NCBI GenBank assembly: GCA_020718205.1
Contig: DYSN01000003.1
Coordinates: forward strand, 1-64,000
Source: Draconibacterium orientale
GTDB lineage: Bacteria > Bacteroidota > Bacteroidia > Bacteroidales > UBA12170
Reading direction: 5' to 3'
DNA length: 64,000 nt
Shown: piece by piece, positions 38,210 through 48,721 of the stretch
Layout of the letters: every line of letters begins with the position of its first letter
Position numbering within the stretch: position 1 is the stretch's first letter
Notes under the pieces: generated by a model
Seen by the model: the letters and a program-made list of their open reading frames with translations, nothing else
Told to the model about the DNA's origin: nothing
Database searches by the model: none
Made by a program: the position numbers and the translations under genes

Positions 38210-39637
38210 TTATTGGTGAAGAATTTTTACCGATCGCACCTCACTGGTATAGATTTTTAGCATCAGCACTCCATGGGGCATTTCGGACAAATCGATGCGG
38301 TAATATCCAGTTGCTAAACTTCGGGAAAACGATTGCTCACCTAAAATCTGACCCTGTAGATTTATGATTTGTATTTTCACATTCTTTTGATTATCAATTC
38401 CCTGGTCATGAATCAAACAATAGCTGCGGGCTGGATTTGGGAAAACATTGGCCGAAGTTTCTATCTCTGCCGATTTAATATCTGGCCTGTTAAAATCAAT
38501 ACTTAACAACTTACTGCGTGATGGTAATCCGGTAAAATCGGCTGTTAAAATATAATGGCCCTTTTCGAGATTTTCGAAACTAAAATCGCCATATTCATCA
38601 GCCACTGTTAAGTTGATTAATTGATTTTCAGTGTTGTATAAATAGATATATGGATTTATCAGATTTTCCGAAACTTCCATTAAATCATCCACATGACCCC
38701 TAAAGTCAAGTGTTCCGCTTTGTTTATTTTGTTTTTTAACCATAAATATGTCTTCGCGATATTTATCCTGTGCCAGATTAACTATTTGGGCTTCATCCCA
38801 TTGGGTGGTATTTCCACTATAGGTTGTGGCATACAACTGGCCATGACCCGAAAACTCAGTCAGACTCACTTTTACCAGATAATGTGCTTTTAGTTTTTGA
38901 TAAAACCAAAAATAGCCGAGCTCAGTAAAAAAGTTTGTATCCACAGGAATAAGCTGGTCGTAGTCCATTCTGTATAACACAGCAATTCCGGTATCGCCAG
39001 TGGGGTAGGGGTTGTTCATGAGGCTGTCGCCCAGAAAAATTTGCCCTCCTAAATCCATATAACGTGCTGTGGTTAAGCCTTTAGCTATAGCTTTTATAAG
39101 CCTTGAAGTATCGTTGAAAGTGTAAATAGCCGATAAAGTAACCTGATAATCATGATCTTCCAGGGCAAAGGAGTGAATGGTATCTTTAACGTCGGCAATC
39201 ACCTCTTTGCCAAATTTCCAAATCAACTGATCGTAGGGTCCTAAAACCGTACTGCTGAAAATGAATGTATTCGGAACCACATTGTTGGTGTCGAGTTTAA
39301 AGCTAAAATCCACACTCAGACTGATAGAAACGGAAATTGTTTTGGTGATTTCGTCCGACGACAGATTGTTGCTAACGCGAAGCAACACCTCATAGTTGCC
39401 ATTGGCCGGAAAATAATGCAATGGGTTGGATTCTGCCGAAGTGCTTCCATCGCCAAAATCCCAATGAACAGCAGTTATTTCACCCTCCGATAGATTTTCG
39501 AATTTTATAATGCTTGGTTTGCCATAGGATTCCGCTATTTCATAATTAAAATTAGCTATGCAGGTGGTATCGGTTGCCGATTGAATATAGCTTCCAAACA
39601 CTAATATCAAACCAAGTATAAGTATCAGTTTTTTCAT
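38210..39637 (-). CDS. Secreted PKD-domain protein with T9SS sorting domain (sigma module 1)
   Basis: AVHWDFGDGSTSAESNPLHYFPANGNYEVLLRV (PKD); C-terminal ANVFPNPARSYCLIH...GVLMLKIYTSEVRSVKILHQ. Confidence 0.85.
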   Translation of the reverse strand: MKKLILILGLILVFGSYIQSATDTTCIANFNYEIAESYGKPSIIKFENLSEGEITAVHWDFGDGSTSAESNPLHYFPANGNYEVLLRVSNNLSSDEITKTISVSISLSVDFSFKLDTNNVVPNTFIFSSTVLGPYDQLIWKFGKEVIADVKDTIHSFALEDHDYQVTLSAIYTFNDTSRLIKAIAKGLTTARYMDLGGQIFLGDSLMNNPYPTGDTGIAVLYRMDYDQLIPVDTNFFTELGYFWFYQKLKAHYLVKVSLTEFSGHGQLYATTYSGNTTQWDEAQIVNLAQDKYREDIFMVKKQNKQSGTLDFRGHVDDLMEVSENLINPYIYLYNTENQLINLTVADEYGDFSFENLEKGHYILTADFTGLPSRSKLLSIDFNRPDIKSAEIETSANVFPNPARSYCLIHDQGIDNQKNVKIQIINLQGQILGEQSFSRSLATGYYRIDLSEMPHGVLMLKIYTSEVRSVKILHQ

Positions 39638-39647
39638 TTCTTGCCTC

Positions 39648-40949
39648 CTACAATTTATATTTTAAACCTATTTGAATTCCAAAACTCACCGGGCCTTTTC
39701 GGCTTCCATTTAAAGTAAAGCTATTGTTTAAATAGTAATTCACTTTGGGCTCGGCATAAATCCACCAATGGGGCAACAAATTGAAACTATTCTCAAGCCC
39801 CAATCCCATTTGAATATAATAGGGGTTGGGTGTTGGGGTTATATCTTTAATGATGTAACTGGATGATAAAGAGTATGTTTCGTCTTTTTTTCTGTCATTG
39901 GTCAGGAAACCAAATTGAGCATTGAGTTGACCATTAAGCTCGTATTTACCCAATTTGATAAATCTATAACCAATTTCGAGGGGAATAATAATCCATTCTC
40001 TGGTTTTGTCCTGGCCTTGCATTTCTGCGGTTTGTGCTACTGAGTCGAAAATGGCAACTGTGGTATAATGAATGATTACTGAGTCGGGGTAACCCGGAAC
40101 CACCTCAAAATAGTCTATATCGTAAAAAAAACCTACACTGTCAAAGGTGCTGTATTCGTTTAGATATTTGGTGGGAGTTTTTCCCCATTGATAGCCTATT
40201 CCAATATTGGCATTCCATCGGTTGTACTCCACGCCTGCTTTCAGTCCAATCTGATTGGTAGTATTGTAATTTTCAGCGTTACTTACAGGCCATTCGGGCT
40301 GATAAAATCCGGAAAGAACCCAATTCGTATTTTGATTTGTGGTATTTAAACCCGAACTTTCTAAACCGGCAGAATCATCAGATTTCTGCGGATTTTCAAT
40401 CATAGTCTTCTCTTTTTCTGGTAAATATCCTATTTCTCTCCGCATCAGAGGTTGGCCTTTAAAATAGAGCCTTTCACCGGAAGTTAACAGTTTAGATTCC
40501 TCGTTTATAGTTGTCAGGGCCAGATTGGCTTTATTTTGCATTCCTGTTTTCTGCACTGAATGGTAAGTTTTATTGGAACTTGCTTGTGGCGAAGATTCAG
40601 TTTCAATTTCTTCAGGGTTGGTAATTATTTTCAACGATGCAATGGGTTCAGTAACTGAGTTGTCAATGGTTGCATTCTGTGAAATAGTTATTTCTGTTGA
40701 CTGGCTGGTTTGTTGGATATCGTTAGATTTATTCAAAAAGTTATAATAAGTAATTCCGCCAATGGTTGCAACCACAGCAAGCCCCGAAAAAAACCAGATT
40801 TTTCCGAAATTGGTGAAGTTAAATCTAATTAGCTCCAATATGATCAACTGTTTGGAAATATTTTTCCAAACATTCTGAGAGGGTTTTATCTCCACATGTT
40901 CCAGAGATTCTCTCAAAAAATTGTCCATATTTAGTTTGTTCTTTGTCAT
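39648..40949 (-). CDS. Single-TM protein with beta-barrel-like C-terminus, possible anti-sigma/transducer (sigma module 1)
   Basis: Cytosolic-like N-terminus FLRESLEHVEIKPSQNVWKNI, TM IWFFSGLAVVATIGGITYY, barrel-like strands; 4-nt overlap with the sigma gene. Confidence 0.7.
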   Translation of the reverse strand: MTKNKLNMDNFLRESLEHVEIKPSQNVWKNISKQLIILELIRFNFTNFGKIWFFSGLAVVATIGGITYYNFLNKSNDIQQTSQSTEITISQNATIDNSVTEPIASLKIITNPEEIETESSPQASSNKTYHSVQKTGMQNKANLALTTINEESKLLTSGERLYFKGQPLMRREIGYLPEKEKTMIENPQKSDDSAGLESSGLNTTNQNTNWVLSGFYQPEWPVSNAENYNTTNQIGLKAGVEYNRWNANIGIGYQWGKTPTKYLNEYSTFDSVGFFYDIDYFEVVPGYPDSVIIHYTTVAIFDSVAQTAEMQGQDKTREWIIIPLEIGYRFIKLGKYELNGQLNAQFGFLTNDRKKDETYSLSSSYIIKDITPTPNPYYIQMGLGLENSFNLLPHWWIYAEPKVNYYLNNSFTLNGSRKGPVSFGIQIGLKYKL

Positions 40950-41500
40950 ATACGATTGCCTTCCGATGCGCTTTGAAATTTTAATTTGAGTTTTTTTCGT
41001 GCTTTTAGCAGCTGAGTTTTCGATGTGTTTACAGAAATGCTTAGTTCTTCTGCTATTTCGTTATGCGAAAAACCATCAAACACATACATATTGAGTACCA
41101 TCCTATATCCTTCGGGAAGTTCCTGAATATAGTTCATCACCATTTGGGGTGATACATTGGGCATATAGTCTATTTTTTCCTCAATACCTTCCTCCACAAA
41201 TACCTCATCAATATCTTGATTAACGTTGAATTTCAGGTTTTTATGATAAGAGTTTATTGCCGTATTAATCATGATCCGTTTCATCCAGGGTTCTAATGAA
41301 CTGTTTTTTTCGAGAGAGTGTATCTTATTGAAGATTTTTATAAATCCCTCCTGAAGAACATCCTCCGCCTCATCTCTCGATTTACTATACCTCATGCACA
41401 ATCCAAGTAGTCGCGAGGCATACTTTTTATAAAGAATAGCCTGTGCCTTACGCTTACCAATTTTGCAATCGTTGATTAGTTCATCTAAAGATTCCATCAT
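40946..41500 (-). CDS. ECF RNA polymerase sigma factor (module 1)
   Basis: AEDVLQEGFIKIFNKIHSLEKNSSLEPWMKRIMINTAINSY; LPEGYRMVLNMYVFDGFSHNEIAEELSISVNTSKTQLLKARKKLK. Confidence 0.93.
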   Translation of the reverse strand: MMESLDELINDCKIGKRKAQAILYKKYASRLLGLCMRYSKSRDEAEDVLQEGFIKIFNKIHSLEKNSSLEPWMKRIMINTAINSYHKNLKFNVNQDIDEVFVEEGIEEKIDYMPNVSPQMVMNYIQELPEGYRMVLNMYVFDGFSHNEIAEELSISVNTSKTQLLKARKKLKLKFQSASEGNRI

Positions 41501-41789
41501 TCAAATTCACCCTTATGACCTCACCATCCCGGCAAAGTTGCCTGAACTGCTTCATTAGTCTGTTTTTACTCTCCTTCGCTTTGCCCTTTTTGGTGGAATA
41601 CAAACCGAAAAAATACCTTCGTCTTTTTGTTGTGGAAATATGGCGAAAAACATAACATACAATAAATCAATGATATAATTAATTATTTTTTGGTCAGTTT
41701 TTCTAAACTGTAAAGATAGAATTTTGTCGTTGACTATGAAGAAGGGATATAAAATAAAAGTAGTTAATATTGATAATTGGGGATAGGGT

Positions 41790-42149
41790 TTAAAAATTCC
41801 CGTCAATTTCTGATGTCAATTGCTTAGATATTGAAATAAAATCTTCCAAAAACTGGGGTTGATTGAAGCGTGATTGAAACCAGGGCATCATTTTTTCCAT
41901 TTGGTCTGGTAAATTCACCAGGGCTTCATTGGGTTTTAGTTCCCGCTGAAGCTCTTTTTCTTTCTTCACTTCTATCACATAAGCATCAACCCACTTTTTA
42001 TATTCGGCCAAAAGCTCGTCATTGGTTAATTTTTCTATGAGATTTGAGTCTGTAATTTCCTGATTAAAAATAGATTGGCTCAGGCCAACAGCTGGGGCAA
42101 CAATTCCGGCGGCTAACGCTTGTTTTAGAAAAATTCTTCGGGTATTCAT
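41790..42149 (-). CDS. Small protein with Tat-like signal (ORF extends to 42188)
   Basis: MNTRRIFLKQALAAGIVAPAVGLSQS. Confidence 0.6.
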   Translation of the reverse strand: MNTRRIFLKQALAAGIVAPAVGLSQSIFNQEITDSNLIEKLTNDELLAEYKKWVDAYVIEVKKEKELQRELKPNEALVNLPDQMEKMMPWFQSRFNQPQFLEDFISISKQLTSEIDGNF

Positions 42150-42240
42150 ATTCCATTGTTTTGCACAAAAATATACTGCCAAAGCCAAATGCAGTGAGTA
42201 AGAAAATAAAAGAAAATGTTAAGGGAATTCGGGGGTTGGC

Positions 42241-43209
42241 TTATCTTATAATCACCAATTTTTGCTGAATTGCCATTTCGCCGTCAATATAAACTTCAAC
42301 CAAATACATGCCCAATGGCCATTCAGAAGTATTGATATTGCCGGAATATAGTTCGTTGTGGAAAATATCGCTGTTCTCGAGCAACATTCTTCCATTCAAA
42401 TCATAAATTTTGGTGGTGATTTCACCAAATCGGTAGGTTATGAATTGCAGATTGATATTGTTTGAGGCAGGATTTGGGAACAGCTTGAAAGAATTTTTCT
42501 GAATGATGGTTTCGTTGATAGAGCTACTTATCATCCCATTTTTTATTTCTATAGCGATGTCGGTGTGTTGTGAATTTTCGTCGGAAATAGTAATAAAAAT
42601 GGGCTCGGTAGTCATTCCGGTTATTTGAGGGTATAATATATAAGAGCCTGTTTCTATTTTGTCAAATAAAAACTGACCATTTGAATTGGTCAAAACATGG
42701 GTGATGGATTCCATTTCGTTCGAGAAAAGAATAACATCCACATTCTCAGCCATGGGCTTAGCATCAGTATTTGTCACAATTCCGGAAATCTTGCCATTTC
42801 CTTGTCCAAGCCCATCTTCTTCCTGATTGATGAGTTTGATATCATATTCCCAACTGGTAGCTTGTATTTCAATAATTTCGGCATCTTCCCAGATGGCCGA
42901 TTTGGGGTAATAGGTGAACGCAAATTGTCCAAAATTAGGATCATCGAGGGTAAGACCGGCATAGACTAAGTATTGTCCTGCGGGTTTTCTGTAGAAATAA
43001 TAATATCCCAGAGTATCAATGGCTTCTTGGTCAACAAGCGTTAAGTCTGGGTAGGAATAAAGATATACATAACCATGCTCAATAGGAAAAAATTCTGAGA
43101 AAACATGACCTCCAAAGCTAAAACTGTCTTTACTATCATCTTGGGCAACAAGTACTTGATTACCCAATAAACTCATAAGGAAAACTGCAATTATGTAAAT
43201 TTTTCTCAT
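42241..43209 (-). CDS. Secreted protein with carboxypeptidase-regulatory-like domain and T9SS sorting domain (sigma module 2)
   Basis: Signal peptide; GKISGIVTNTDAKPMAENVDVILFSNEMESITHVLTNSNGQFLFDKIETGSYIL; C-terminal LFPNPASNNINLQF...GMYLVEVYIDGEMAIQQKLVIIR. Confidence 0.83.
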   Translation of the reverse strand: MRKIYIIAVFLMSLLGNQVLVAQDDSKDSFSFGGHVFSEFFPIEHGYVYLYSYPDLTLVDQEAIDTLGYYYFYRKPAGQYLVYAGLTLDDPNFGQFAFTYYPKSAIWEDAEIIEIQATSWEYDIKLINQEEDGLGQGNGKISGIVTNTDAKPMAENVDVILFSNEMESITHVLTNSNGQFLFDKIETGSYILYPQITGMTTEPIFITISDENSQHTDIAIEIKNGMISSSINETIIQKNSFKLFPNPASNNINLQFITYRFGEITTKIYDLNGRMLLENSDIFHNELYSGNINTSEWPLGMYLVEVYIDGEMAIQQKLVIIR

Positions 43210-43222
43210 CGTTCCATCCCCT

Positions 43223-44560
43223 CTATTTTATAATGTATTTAAATCCAATTTTTACTCCAAAACCATTAGGATTTCCCCCATTATTAGGTTCCACAAGCGA
43301 TTTGATATAATATCGGGCATTTGGTTCAATTCCAAACAGGAACTTGTCTGTGATTCTATAATCAAGACCCATGTTTAACTGAGCCTGCAAATGCCAGGGC
43401 GTTCTTTCGAAGTACAGGGGAGTTATTTTAATAATGGAAGTGTTATCTCCGTCGACAGTGGGTGTTGGAATGCTTTCATAAACCTTGAAGCTTGCTATGA
43501 CTCCTCCTTTAAAATATAAGGTAAATCTGTTACCTAAATCCCGTGAATAGCCTATGTTTAAAGGAATATTCAGGTAGGCGTAGGTGTTTTTCTCTTCCTT
43601 TACAATGACTTTGTCCATGGTATCATAAACATTAACCAGCTTGGTATAATAGATAGGAACCGGAGCTCCGCTGCTGGTATCGAAACCAACTTCATAAACA
43701 TCCTGATATGAACCTTTATAAACAGATTCCTGATAATCTACTTGATAAATCCCGTCATCTTTGCTTATGGCAATACCTAATCCGCTTTCAACGAACCAGT
43801 TACCCCAAAAATATTTTCCAGATAAATCTAAACCAAAAGAGCGGATATTGTTGTCATTTTCGGGAATTGTAATCCATTCGGGTGAAAATTCAAGACCCAG
43901 TTTCCAATAGTTTTCATTTTCATGGCCCTGAGTCATTTTTTCAATGGCATCGTCATCAAAGAAATCACGTCCGGCTTTTGAAGCATTCGAAGCAGTATTG
44001 TCGTTTTTATCAAAGGAAACCACAGAGTTTATTGTTTCGCCCGTTACTTCATTTTCAAAAATAAGCTCCATTTCCTCTATAATAATAGTTTTATTATCAG
44101 GAGTATTAACTTCAGTAAGTATTGTTGGAGATTTTTCAATTATCTGGTGGGGAACAAATTCATCATCAATTATTATTGATGGCTCAGATGCATTAACTGC
44201 AAGAGATGCTTGTTTTTTAGGCTGAGTTTCTTTAGTAATTTTGGTAATATTCGTTGTGTTTTCAGTACCTGCAGGAGTTTCCGGAGTTATTGATATGGTT
44301 TTTGAAGCTTCTTCAGAAGGATTAAGCGAAGGCAACTCCGAAGGCATTTCTTCGGAAGCAAAATAGAAGTAGGCACCTACCGAAAGCAGGGCAACAACAG
44401 AAGCAGCAGCCCACCATCTCCATGAGGAGGATCGACCCTGAGCAACATCCAGGCTTTGATCCTGAATGCCTTGCCAAATATTCTCAGGGGGAGTAACTTC
44501 GTAATCGTGAAGCCTCTCTTTAAAAATCTGGTCAAAATCTGTATGTTTATTAACTTCCAT
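43223..44560 (-). CDS. Single-TM protein with beta-barrel-like C-terminus, possible anti-sigma/transducer (sigma module 2)
   Basis: FKERLHDYEVTPPENIWQGI N-terminus, TM WWAAASVVALLSVGAYFYF, C-terminal NGFGVKIGFKYIIK. Confidence 0.72.
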   Translation of the reverse strand: MEVNKHTDFDQIFKERLHDYEVTPPENIWQGIQDQSLDVAQGRSSSWRWWAAASVVALLSVGAYFYFASEEMPSELPSLNPSEEASKTISITPETPAGTENTTNITKITKETQPKKQASLAVNASEPSIIIDDEFVPHQIIEKSPTILTEVNTPDNKTIIIEEMELIFENEVTGETINSVVSFDKNDNTASNASKAGRDFFDDDAIEKMTQGHENENYWKLGLEFSPEWITIPENDNNIRSFGLDLSGKYFWGNWFVESGLGIAISKDDGIYQVDYQESVYKGSYQDVYEVGFDTSSGAPVPIYYTKLVNVYDTMDKVIVKEEKNTYAYLNIPLNIGYSRDLGNRFTLYFKGGVIASFKVYESIPTPTVDGDNTSIIKITPLYFERTPWHLQAQLNMGLDYRITDKFLFGIEPNARYYIKSLVEPNNGGNPNGFGVKIGFKYIIK

Positions 44561-45088
44561 TTATTTGTTTGTAATTCGTTTTTGCAGATAAGCACGTGCT
44601 CGTGCTAACTGCGATTTGCTCGTATTTTCTGAAATATTCAACAATTCACCAATTTCATTATGTTGATAACCCTCAATAACATAAAGGTTAAAAACAGCTC
44701 TGTAGCCATCGGGCAATTCGGAGATGAGTTTCATGAGTTCTCCAGCCGAAAGCTGGTCAATAGCCGAAACATCATCGCTTTTTTCGTAGATGACAATTTT
44801 GTCAATATCAGCATTGCTTCGGTGTTTCAGATTTTTCTTGTAGTAGTTGATGGCGGTATTGATAATGGTTCGCCGAACCCAACCTTCAAGGCTTCCTTCG
44901 TTTCTATAGCTGCTTAGATTTGAAAAAACCTTTACAAAACCTTCCTGCAATATATCTCCGGCTTCTTCTCTGTCATGTGCAAAACGTAAGGCAACTCCAT
45001 ACATTCTGGATGCAAATCGGTCGTAAAAGATTTTTTGCGCCTGAGTGTTGCCCGCCAGTACTTTTTGTATGAGTTGTTCTTCCTCCAT
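44561..45088 (-). CDS. ECF RNA polymerase sigma factor (module 2)
   Basis: EEAGDILQEGFVKVFSNLSSYRNEGSLEGWVRRTIINTAINYYKK; LPDGYRAVFNLYVIEGYQHNEIGELLNISENTSKSQLARARAYLQK. Confidence 0.93.
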   Translation of the reverse strand: MEEEQLIQKVLAGNTQAQKIFYDRFASRMYGVALRFAHDREEAGDILQEGFVKVFSNLSSYRNEGSLEGWVRRTIINTAINYYKKNLKHRSNADIDKIVIYEKSDDVSAIDQLSAGELMKLISELPDGYRAVFNLYVIEGYQHNEIGELLNISENTSKSQLARARAYLQKRITNK

Positions 45089-45116
45089 GAAGTTATTTTA
45101 CAGCCTGTGTGTTTTG

Positions 45117-45164
45117 GCGGGTAAAATTAACTATTATTCATTTATAGAAAAACGCTTTACCCGC
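45117..45164. repeat. Inverted repeat GCGGGTAAA / TTTACCCGC upstream of sigma module 2
   Basis: 9-bp perfect arms at 45117-45125 and 45156-45164. Confidence 0.7.
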
Positions 45165-45470
45165 TAAACAAGGTAATTTGGTAAAAATTCCAAAAAATAA
45201 ATCAAAGAACTCGATACGATTCTAAGTGATAAAACAACAAGTCTACGTGAAAAGGATAGACATTTTAATGTTTGAATTAGTTGCATTGTTGCAATAATTT
45301 ATCTTAATTCTCAAACATTTAATCCTTTTTTAGCGAACCAATTGCTGTGTTTAAGACTTCAAAACAAAAAGAATAGTTGCAGGAGGAAATAATTATTTCT
45401 GAAAATAAGTGAAATCAACAGAAAATGTCACTTCAAAATATTGTGAATCAGCTAAATAATAGATGCGGAT

Positions 45471-45926
45471 TTATTTTTCGATTGCCATAATTTTTAATCC
45501 GGCAAAGCCATAATTGTCTAGATATTGTGAATGATTGCTGATTACCAATTTTAAAGTCCCCGATTCCTTTATCAATAGGTTCGATTTGACATTTATTGGC
45601 AAAATAAATTCTCCATTCATATTTTTTCCTAGGGGATTTAAATCGTAATCGAGTACTTTTATCGATTTATCTTCCAGTCGTTCGCTACCATCGGGTAAAT
45701 ACAAATAAAATCCCACTTCTATTTTTCGCTGCCGGAAAGTAGAGTCTGTATGAAGTTCCCCCAAAATGGTGTATTCTTTACCAGCTTCCACCTGGAAACT
45801 GTATTCCAAATCATTAAATTTAACCCAGTTATGGTCTTTAAAACGATCAGATTGTTCAAAATGATAGTTGCTGGTGCAAGATAACAGGTTAAATATCAGC
45901 AGTATTATAAAAATTTGCCTGAACAT
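45471..45926 (-). CDS. Hypothetical lipoprotein
   Basis: MFRQIFIILLIFNLLSCTSNY lipobox. Confidence 0.65.
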   Translation of the reverse strand: MFRQIFIILLIFNLLSCTSNYHFEQSDRFKDHNWVKFNDLEYSFQVEAGKEYTILGELHTDSTFRQRKIEVGFYLYLPDGSERLEDKSIKVLDYDLNPLGKNMNGEFILPINVKSNLLIKESGTLKLVISNHSQYLDNYGFAGLKIMAIEK

Positions 45927-45951
45927 AAACTATGGAATTTTTTGCAAATAT

Positions 45952-45983
45952 AAAAAAAGACGGACTGGTGAGGCCAGTCCGTC
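45952..45983 (-). terminator. Intrinsic terminator of the 46007-48721 gene
   Basis: Minus strand GACGGACTGG-CCTCA-CCAGTCCGTC-TTTTTTT. Confidence 0.9.
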
Positions 45984-46006
45984 CGATGAACAAAACAGAT
46001 ACAATC

Positions 46007-48721
46007 TTACAAAATTGTAATCGTCTTAGAGTAGTGGTTTTTAGAAGTCTTTAATTCCAAGACATAATTTCCCGGCGAATAGTTGCTTAAATCGATGAAA
46101 CTTTTTTCTCCGGATATTTCTGTTTCCAATATTTTTTTACCATCAAGAGAGCTAACAGTCAAAGTTGACTGGATGTTCAATGGGTTTTTAAATGTGATAT
46201 TAATCTTTCCATTGGAAGGATTTGGCCAAACCTGAAAATCTGACATTTCCTGTAAATCGCTGATGCCAACAGTGTTATAATGATAGGTGGCAGTGAATAA
46301 TCCCCTTCCATGAGTGGCAGCCAAAACAGTTAAATCATTTTCACGAATGCGAAGCATATCTACCCTCACATTGGCCATTCCTTCTATGGTGGGAATCCAT
46401 TCCGGATCAGATTGTCGCAAATCTACACATTCCCAAACCCCCAATTCTGTAGCAATAATTGCTTGCTTGCTGTTGTAAGGATGATAAATGGCCCAACGAA
46501 CGGGCATATCGGGCAAATTCCCTTCTGCTTCACGCCAGCTTCCTCCGCCATCGTAAGTTTGCCAGATAGAGCTAACTCCATAGTTGCTAAAAGTAACCAA
46601 AAGCGTATCCTCCGAACCCCCAATGGCTATGGAACTGATAGCACCTGTGGGAAAATCGGGAGAACCAATTTCTTCGGACTGTGGGCTTGCCTGAGCATCT
46701 GTTACTTTGAATAAATGCCCGGCATTGCTACCAACAAACAAGGTTGATTTTCCGGGGGCGGAATGGGGTGAATAAGTCACATTGGTAAACCAGGTCATCA
46801 CATTTGTACCAATATCTATCATGTCTTCGTTGGTGGGATAGGGAAGGCCCGAGGCTTTAAAAAGCGTATTGGCATTGTCAATAAAGAAAGATACCCCATT
46901 GGCATAAAGAATATTGTCATCATAATCTAATGCAGCTGGGCTGACGAAAGTTCCTGTTTCGTCGCTTCCCAGATAATTCACAGTGTTCCCATTTTCATAA
47001 ATGGTATATCTGTTATAATAGTAGGAGGCTATTGAAATATCACCATCATCCTTATCGAAAAAGCAATATGCTCCATCACCACCGTTAATCATATCGTTGA
47101 TGTCTAGAGAGCTGCCTGTATATAAAAGGGTTCCGTTGTCTTGCAAACCCCCAATATATTCTGCAGTTCCCATTTCTGGATGAATATCGCAGGTATAGAA
47201 CTGAAGGCTTGAATAGTTTCTGTTCATTTCCTGAAACACCGGAAAAGTATTGTCACCATTGTTGGTATAAAATACACCGCCATCGGAACCAAAAATAATT
47301 TCTGTTGATGAGCCCGGTTTGAATTTAATAACATGTTGATCGGCATGGATATATTCGTCGCCACCACCATAATACATAAGCGACCAATCACTCACATGTT
47401 TATACGAACCTCCCCCCGTTAGACTGTGATATTGGTCTAAACCCCCAACATAGAAATGCTCCGGATTGTTTGGATCCACTTCAATGGAAAAGGCATGCCA
47501 GCTTAAACTTGCCCAGTTTGCAGCGTTGTCTGGTATATTTTTCTGTTCCCATGTTTCTCCCTTGTCGGTTGATTTTAGAACAAAAGGACCATGATAATAC
47601 CCAAACCCGTTTAAGTAACCGGCTCCAACTATCGCATACACTATATTTTCGTCCGATGGTGCTGATGAAATCATCACACGACCCGGTAAATAGTATTGAC
47701 CGTATCCATTTTCAATGATGGTTTTATATTCTTCATTTTTTGTCCAGCTTCCTGCAGTTCCTTCATCGGAGTATAGAATTGTTGCTCCGCCTTCGCCATC
47801 GATATTTCGCATGGTCCCAATATAAATCCTGCCATCGGTCCCTATTTCAATGTCGGCAGGTGCATAAGGAATATCGAGGTCGGTGATGTTGGGCAAAACC
47901 TGTTCCCAGCTTTCACCGCCATCTGTTGAACGATAAAGACCATCGGTGGGTTGAGAATTATAGTCTTCGCCCATATATTTTCCCGAGGCTACTGCGGCAT
48001 AAATTACTGAGTTGCCATTTTCGTTCCTTACCTCAATATCGTTGACATAGGCAAATTCCTGAGTTGATGGAATGATATCCCAGGATTCCCCTCCATTGAT
48101 TGATTTCCAGATTCCTACGCCACGTCCTGATGATTCACGATAGGTGATGATAGCCGTTGGAGCCTCGCCAGTTCCAGCGTAAAAAATCTGGGTATTGTTT
48201 GGATCATGGGATATTACACTAACCGATAAGGAGGCCATAAAATCATCAACAGGTTGCCATGAAGATAATGGATCAGTTATGTCGTTGTTGAACCAGATTC
48301 CGCCCGTTACCGAGCCCGCCCAGACCTTGTTTCCTGTGGCAGAGTTTGGATCCCACATTAAAGCCCGGGTGCGGCCACCCATATTGCTCGAGATATTATC
48401 CCAACGGATATTGTCGGAAAATCTGGTGCGGCTATTCTGGAGAATGTCGGTCATTTTTCGCTGAGCCGCAAATAGACGTTCCCGGGGAACCCGTTTTTCC
48501 TTTGGGTCCATTACCTGATAATATTCTTGCAAAGCCGCCATATCGGGCTGTCCCAAAGCCTTCTTGTCAGAAGTGTCTTTGGGAGGATTTTCGTAAAATT
48601 GCTTTAATTCAATATTGATGAACTTTTGGTAAGCTTCGCGGGAGTCCTGCTTGTTATAGAGACTGACCGCCAGAGCAACTATCAGTATCACTGAAGCAGC
48701 AGAATAATAAAACTTTTTCAT
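46007..48721 (-). CDS. Secreted BNR/VPS10-sortilin-like beta-propeller protein with T9SS sorting domain
   Basis: Asp-box-like repeats (SINGGESWDIIP, STDGGESWEQV, STDKGETWEQK, TYDGGGSWREA); C-terminal VWPNPSNGKINITF...GNYVLELKTSKNHYSKTITIL. Confidence 0.87.
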   Translation of the reverse strand: MKKFYYSAASVILIVALAVSLYNKQDSREAYQKFINIELKQFYENPPKDTSDKKALGQPDMAALQEYYQVMDPKEKRVPRERLFAAQRKMTDILQNSRTRFSDNIRWDNISSNMGGRTRALMWDPNSATGNKVWAGSVTGGIWFNNDITDPLSSWQPVDDFMASLSVSVISHDPNNTQIFYAGTGEAPTAIITYRESSGRGVGIWKSINGGESWDIIPSTQEFAYVNDIEVRNENGNSVIYAAVASGKYMGEDYNSQPTDGLYRSTDGGESWEQVLPNITDLDIPYAPADIEIGTDGRIYIGTMRNIDGEGGATILYSDEGTAGSWTKNEEYKTIIENGYGQYYLPGRVMISSAPSDENIVYAIVGAGYLNGFGYYHGPFVLKSTDKGETWEQKNIPDNAANWASLSWHAFSIEVDPNNPEHFYVGGLDQYHSLTGGGSYKHVSDWSLMYYGGGDEYIHADQHVIKFKPGSSTEIIFGSDGGVFYTNNGDNTFPVFQEMNRNYSSLQFYTCDIHPEMGTAEYIGGLQDNGTLLYTGSSLDINDMINGGDGAYCFFDKDDGDISIASYYYNRYTIYENGNTVNYLGSDETGTFVSPAALDYDDNILYANGVSFFIDNANTLFKASGLPYPTNEDMIDIGTNVMTWFTNVTYSPHSAPGKSTLFVGSNAGHLFKVTDAQASPQSEEIGSPDFPTGAISSIAIGGSEDTLLVTFSNYGVSSIWQTYDGGGSWREAEGNLPDMPVRWAIYHPYNSKQAIIATELGVWECVDLRQSDPEWIPTIEGMANVRVDMLRIRENDLTVLAATHGRGLFTATYHYNTVGISDLQEMSDFQVWPNPSNGKINITFKNPLNIQSTLTVSSLDGKKILETEISGEKSFIDLSNYSPGNYVLELKTSKNHYSKTITIL

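Follow-up and report, generated by a model that had tools for sequence, protein, structure and literature searches.

Tandem Das/Dma-type sigma factor modules with a type IX-secreted third gene in the Bacteroidales

Our analysis of the window, a 64,000-nucleotide stretch of a Draconibacterium orientale genome, identifies two tandem modules that we regard as a variant of the Das/Dma sigma factor system coupled to type IX secretion (T9SS). Each module consists of genes for an ECF sigma factor, a Dma-type protein with a membrane barrel, and a protein with a T9SS sorting domain. All six open reading frames lie on the minus strand with the ends and order given by the initial annotation, copy A at 45088-42241 and copy B at 41500-38210 (Table 1), and the copies are homologous gene by gene: the sigma factors share 46% identity (E 2e-52), the T9SS proteins 28% (E 2e-19), and the Dma proteins 22% over their whole length (E 6e-14). 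The close packing of the sigma and Dma genes described earlier is also confirmed; sigma A and Dma A abut (44561/44560, a gap of 0 nt) and sigma B shares 4 nt with Dma B (40946-40949, a gap of -4 nt), spacings that fit translational coupling, and the T9SS gene starts 13 nt past Dma A and 10 nt past Dma B. Pfam searches recover ECF sigma regions 2 and 4; the barrel protein of copy A matches OMP_b-brl, and the products of the two third genes carry Por_Secre_tail.

The genome is a 4.1-Mb draft in 393 contigs with an estimated contamination of around 6%, and our conclusions therefore rest mainly on what is conserved across other genomes. The assembly also contains a third module of this make, away from the first two (contig C311, locus L010:3376-7356). 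A scan of genome contigs with Dma A alone as the query gave no match; matches were recovered when the sigma alignment was used as the query.

Table 1. Genes and predicted regulatory features of the two modules.
Feature	Position	Strand	Basis
sigma A (Das-type ECF sigma factor, 175 aa)	44561..45088	-	Pfam Sigma70_r2 + r4_2
Dma A (445 aa)	43223..44560	-	AlphaFold2 model; Foldseek, OmpA-like; hhalign to Dma2 orthologues
T9SS protein A (322 aa)	42241..43209	-	core E 2e-39 at 42772-43122; Por_Secre_tail, sorting domain residues 243-320
sigma B (Das-type ECF sigma factor, 184 aa)	40946..41500	-	Pfam; 46% identity to sigma A
Dma B (433 aa)	39648..40949	-	homology to Dma A over whole length; alignments A1 + A8
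T9SS protein B (475 aa)	38210..39637	-	Pfam; PKD; core E 1e-36 at 38687-39058; sorting domain residues 398-469
predicted ECF promoter, module A	45258..45285	-	TGCAACT-N-GTCT, 170 nt before ATG; similar place in other type A modules
second promoter-like site upstream of sigma A	45354..45381	-	TGCAACT-N-GTCT, 266 nt before ATG
predicted ECF promoter, module B	41516..41542	-	GGCAACT-N-GTCA, 16 nt before ATG
5' leader, module A (~165 nt)	45089..45253	-	promoter-to-ATG distance; long leader recurs in type A; fold z -2.15

The sigma factor and barrel protein as a Das/Dma pair

In the gut bacterium Bacteroides thetaiotaomicron the Dma proteins are dual membrane-spanning anti-sigma factors, in which a sigma-binding domain at the N-terminus and a transmembrane helix are joined by a long disordered tether to a C-terminal barrel, and the dma genes adjoin genes of ECF21 sigma factors named Das (PMC13088901). 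The systems described in that species are Das1-Dma1, Das2-Dma2 and Dma3, and a neighbouring gene, BT_1556, encodes a DUF4858 protein (PMC13088901). For comparison with the middle protein of our modules, orthologues of Dma2 were picked not by name but through a DUF4943 (PF16301) neighbour, joined at locus L100 by DUF4858. The two loci obtained, L100 and L101, come from one family. In both, a sigma gene is followed by a Dma-like gene, a DUF4943 gene and one more gene, which Pfam assigns to DUF4858 in L100.

The profile comparison of the middle protein proposed in the initial annotation gives a full-length match: an alignment of 19 barrel proteins matches the two Dma2 orthologues in hhalign with 98.2% probability (E 5.5e-14), and a smaller alignment already matched them over residues 1-68. 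In the AlphaFold2 model of Dma A, helices at residues 7-18 and 26-37 are followed by a membrane helix (46-68), a disordered region (69-202) and a barrel (218-444); pLDDT is mostly above 90 in the barrel and around 50-70 in the N-terminal helices. The barrel is 8-stranded and its best PDB matches in Foldseek are OmpA-type barrels. As modeled, Dma A shows the defining four-part Dma architecture, and Dma B is predicted to share it by homology to Dma A. Neither Pfam nor NCBIfam holds a model that matches the N-terminal part of the Dma proteins. Sigma A is 38% identical to the Das2 orthologue in L100, the sequence of which is incomplete.

On the strength of the full-length homology to Dma2 and the four-part model, we assign the sigma factor and barrel protein to the Das/Dma type. 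The initial annotation, which did not recognize a characterized system here, is to be corrected on this point, as the two genes correspond to the Das/Dma pair of B. thetaiotaomicron (PMC13088901). With this assignment an anti-sigma factor is the best interpretation of the middle protein, and by analogy its N-terminal helices would bind the sigma factor. A sigma gene stands in front of 53 of the 55 Dma-type genes found in 40 neighbourhoods and in the genus of the window, and in the other two cases a contig end may hide it. Across the phylum (sigma set L111-L190), the anti-sigma-like N-terminal domain and transmembrane helix are kept beside the same sigma group, with many different C-terminal parts and a third gene that also varies.

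The modules resemble the B. thetaiotaomicron systems in their adjacent sigma and Dma genes, the four-part Dma, the full-length Dma2 homology, and a three-gene operon with an exported third protein (PMC13088901). They differ in the identity of the third gene, which is DUF4943 or NigD-like in B. thetaiotaomicron (PMC13088901), whereas here it encodes a T9SS-secreted protein with a conserved core; they also differ in standing in tandem and in occurring in T9SS-bearing Bacteroidales.

The third gene and its conserved core

Both third genes score above cut-off for the sorting domain, with 45.8 and 42.3 bits against 27 for Por_Secre_tail and 41.6 and 33.2 bits against 23 for TIGR04183. The model of T9SS protein A is all-beta (mean pLDDT 82.9), and the cargo resembles a multi-domain beta-sandwich protein of the adhesin or pilin type.

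A Dma-type gene was found by profile in 95 of the 149 genomes of the order, and 40 neighbourhoods were taken from the top of this list, ranked by Dma similarity alone. Downstream of these closer Dmas and those of the window's own genus, 50 of 52 proteins carry a T9SS sorting domain, 45 carry CarboxypepD_reg and 42 carry PKD. Among control genes on the far side of sigma, the sorting domain is present in 4 of 36 (Fisher p 3e-17, which is nominal since the loci are related). In an HMM search of 20 loci with weaker, distant Dma matches, none of the 20 had a downstream gene with a sorting domain or core. On the far-side control and the distant set we rejected a generic habit of T9SS genes as neighbours. 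Co-occurrence of the three families in this order, which the initial annotation had suggested looking for, extends to many families of the Bacteroidales. Several of the distant Dmas are followed by NigD-like lipoproteins, a third gene reported for Dma1 of B. thetaiotaomicron (PMC13088901), and two are followed by lytic transglycosylases with an SLT domain (L198:2893-3858 and L209:3759-4733).

Most of the third-gene proteins share a core of around 115 residues, with the consensus GGxVFxGxFPxDxGxAYLY...GYYxFY...YxPTYYGxxxxWxxA...DIxL...GxGxIxG. Strong matches to this core number 47 in 22 genomes; 43 of these follow a Dma gene in the same orientation, 41 within 4.5 kb, and the other four have no linked Dma gene, some of them being at contig ends. 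Core T9SS proteins with neither an adjoining Dma gene nor a nearby promoter motif are encoded at L225:1270-2904, on contig C126 of the genome under study, and at L224:1368-3974.

Of the 149 genomes, 52 contain the core. It occurs in 47 of the 95 that have a Dma match, compared with 5 of the 54 that lack one. SprA is found in 140 of the 149, so that T9SS is near-universal in the order and its presence alone cannot explain this pattern. A search of 396 genomes from the phylum at E 1e-12 found the core in one genome besides that of the window; outside the order it is almost missing. Loci bearing the T9SS label group strongly together on the tree of sigma factors, with 7 changes where shuffles give 18.9; the deep branches of this tree are weak. 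Given that distant Dmas differ in their third gene, and that the N-terminal domain and sigma factor are kept phylum-wide, we consider the modules to represent a T9SS-coupled variant, mostly of the Bacteroidales, of a wider Das/Dma family.

Predicted promoters and inheritance of the modules

The sequence GCAAC is enriched upstream of the sigma genes (35 of 47, against 6.6 expected). A two-part motif, defined as GCAAC followed after 16-19 nt by at least three of the four letters of GTCT, is found upstream of 26 of the 47 and is missing from some modules; shuffled sequences give 0.9 matches and the opposite strand 1. The phylum-wide sigma set, which was fetched independently and shares a few loci with the first, contains the motif in 37 of 80 cases against 1.4. 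The pattern KGCAACY, 15-17 nt, GTCT or GTCA has three matches in the window, two before sigma A and one before sigma B, where 0.2 are expected. The restriction of the motif within the window to the regions before the two sigma genes supports autoregulation, and we infer from these sequences that the modules are controlled by their own sigma factors. Genome-wide, a strict promoter pattern gave 5 matches against 6 in a reversed control, and we therefore make no claim of a regulon beyond the modules.

Type A promoters mostly lie around 150-260 nt before the start codon across families, and type B promoters around 45 nt. Type A modules thus keep a long 5' leader and type B modules are nearly leaderless; the type A leaders align poorly with one another. 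The leader of module A folds slightly better than shuffled sequences (z -2.15). The only RNA family match, to the L20 leader, lies outside this leader at 45946-46057 and below threshold (E 0.042; 27.5 bits, gathering score 58.7), and was taken as chance.

Consideration of other genomes gives insight into the age of the tandem. The window, its genus-mate L026 and the loci L060, L061, L064 and L068 all carry a type A module followed by a type B module, making six genomes from five families; a further tandem is present in the named metagenome record L112. The type A and type B sigma factors fall in separate parts of the sigma tree, and the B-type cores share an insertion, NNPxxTGDTG, that is absent from the A-type cores. 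As the two positions correspond to separate sigma clades whose order is kept across families, the duplication is old and we rejected a recent event. The earlier description of a tandem duplicate accordingly holds for the layout and not for a recent duplication: these are two old paralogous types, which arose before several families split. Distances co-vary between sigma and Dma (r 0.72), sigma and core (0.53), and Dma and core (0.64), as would be expected if the module is passed on as a unit.

The third module type forms arrays, with three modules in a row at L227:1399-17131 (genus-mate G003), two at L228:850-9976 (genus-mate G002) and one, L010, in the genome of the window. Some of its third genes encode a sorting domain without the core.

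A proposed switch and its alternatives

We propose, with good though not full confidence, that each module is an autoregulated switch of the Das/Dma type with the T9SS protein as its dedicated operon partner. The protein families, synteny, co-inheritance and promoter conservation behind this proposal were computed here, and the architecture is taken from the model; sigma capture and release are carried over by analogy from B. thetaiotaomicron, and these steps, like autoregulation and any contact between barrel and cargo, are ones that we infer. At rest, the cytosolic N-terminal helices of Dma would hold the sigma factor, and Dma would span the envelope by means of one inner-membrane helix, a disordered periplasmic tether of around 130 residues and an OmpA-like outer-membrane barrel. 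A change at the outer membrane or cell surface, sensed by the barrel, would lead to release of the sigma factor, which would then transcribe its own operon from the KGCAACY...GTCT promoter. This would yield more sigma factor, more anti-sigma factor to reset the switch, and more T9SS protein for export to the surface. The T9SS protein would be the dedicated output and possibly also the surface partner of the barrel, in which case its amount or engagement would feed back on the switch. The surface-signalling cassette suggested in the initial annotation, with a secreted protein coupled to a dedicated sigma factor, finds good support in the synteny across the order, the co-inheritance and the shared promoter of autoregulatory type; that the T9SS protein itself signals is a conjecture.

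The T9SS protein may instead be an output only, such as an adhesin or coat component of the cell surface that is produced when needed, with Dma sensing a glycan or outer-membrane stress and never touching the cargo. We regard this as a serious contender, little short of evenly balanced. It suits the adhesin- or pilin-like, multi-domain beta-sandwich appearance of the cargo, and in B. thetaiotaomicron third genes in the vicinity of dma2 are strongly up-regulated yet dispensable for the vesicle phenotype, the authors proposing glycan sensing (PMC13088901). Two arguments against it, both weak, are that the core is almost confined to Dma neighbourhoods, while a pure output would be more easily swapped, and that the core co-varies with the barrel beyond the share of the sigma factor (partial correlation 0.41). 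The partial correlation of barrel and core is 0.54, compared with 0.20 for the N-terminal part and core, a difference that alignment length could produce; taken with the tight linkage of the core to Dma, it hints at contact between barrel and cargo. We consider direct contact less likely than not. With similar reserve we suggest that the cargo could act at the cell surface as a ligand or lid for the Dma barrel; a single polypeptide crossing two membranes would then report the secretion of the cargo, or its state at the surface, to the sigma factor of the same module, a reading that we think somewhat doubtful. If true, it would constitute a direct trans-envelope feedback loop on a type IX-secreted protein.

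It is highly improbable that no functional module lies behind the gene order and that it reflects chance, or a general tendency of T9SS genes to be placed after genes for membrane proteins; T9SS cargo genes are indeed common (sorting domain on 40 of 824 ORFs at the phylum-wide loci, in addition to the wide distribution of SprA), but this does not account for 50 of 52 downstream proteins against 4 of 36 control genes, one shared core domain, none of the 20 distant Dma loci, and an order kept in many families. A cell-surface signalling system of the FecI/FecR/FecA type, to which we give next to no credence, would likewise combine an ECF sigma factor, an inner-membrane regulator and a surface component in surface-to-cytosol signalling, but we rejected this identity, as Pfam finds no FecR domain or TonB-dependent receptor in either module, and here one protein is predicted to cross both membranes, with the 8-stranded, OmpA-like barrel forming part of the regulator itself.

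For a Das/Dma-type switch with a T9SS partner, the PorA-PorXY-SigP pathway of Porphyromonas gingivalis offers a functional precedent by a different route. PorA is a T9SS-CTD surface protein upstream of an ECF sigma factor, and the pairing is thus alike (PMC7712824). In that pathway, however, the signal passes through a two-component system, SigP controls genes of the T9SS machine, and the route is described without a Dma; PorA has a FimH-like domain and is reported from Porphyromonas only (PMC7712824). No two-component gene lies inside either of our modules.

The Das/Dma kind of system is already known from the recent work on B. thetaiotaomicron. Full-text literature searches returned no paper joining Dma or ECF21 with T9SS, although priority is not certain; the T9SS-coupled three-gene variant, the core domain and the old tandem appear to be new as far as these searches reach. 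In many of the other Bacteroidales families sampled, the closest Dma relatives are accompanied by a dedicated secreted protein, always from a single family. This association links trans-envelope sigma control to type IX secretion and offers a concrete candidate for what Dma encounters at its outer-membrane end. The conserved promoter motif gives a direct handle on autoregulation.

Two further reading frames adjoin the modules. Between them, at 41790-42188, lies a gene for a 132-aa protein with a twin-arginine-like N-terminus and no family match, which occupies the same place in two genus-mates. Before module A, at 45471-45926, a lipoprotein with weak similarity to the gliding motility protein GldH is encoded (NCBIfam E 9e-5, below cut-off), and this gene precedes module A in three genus-mates as well.
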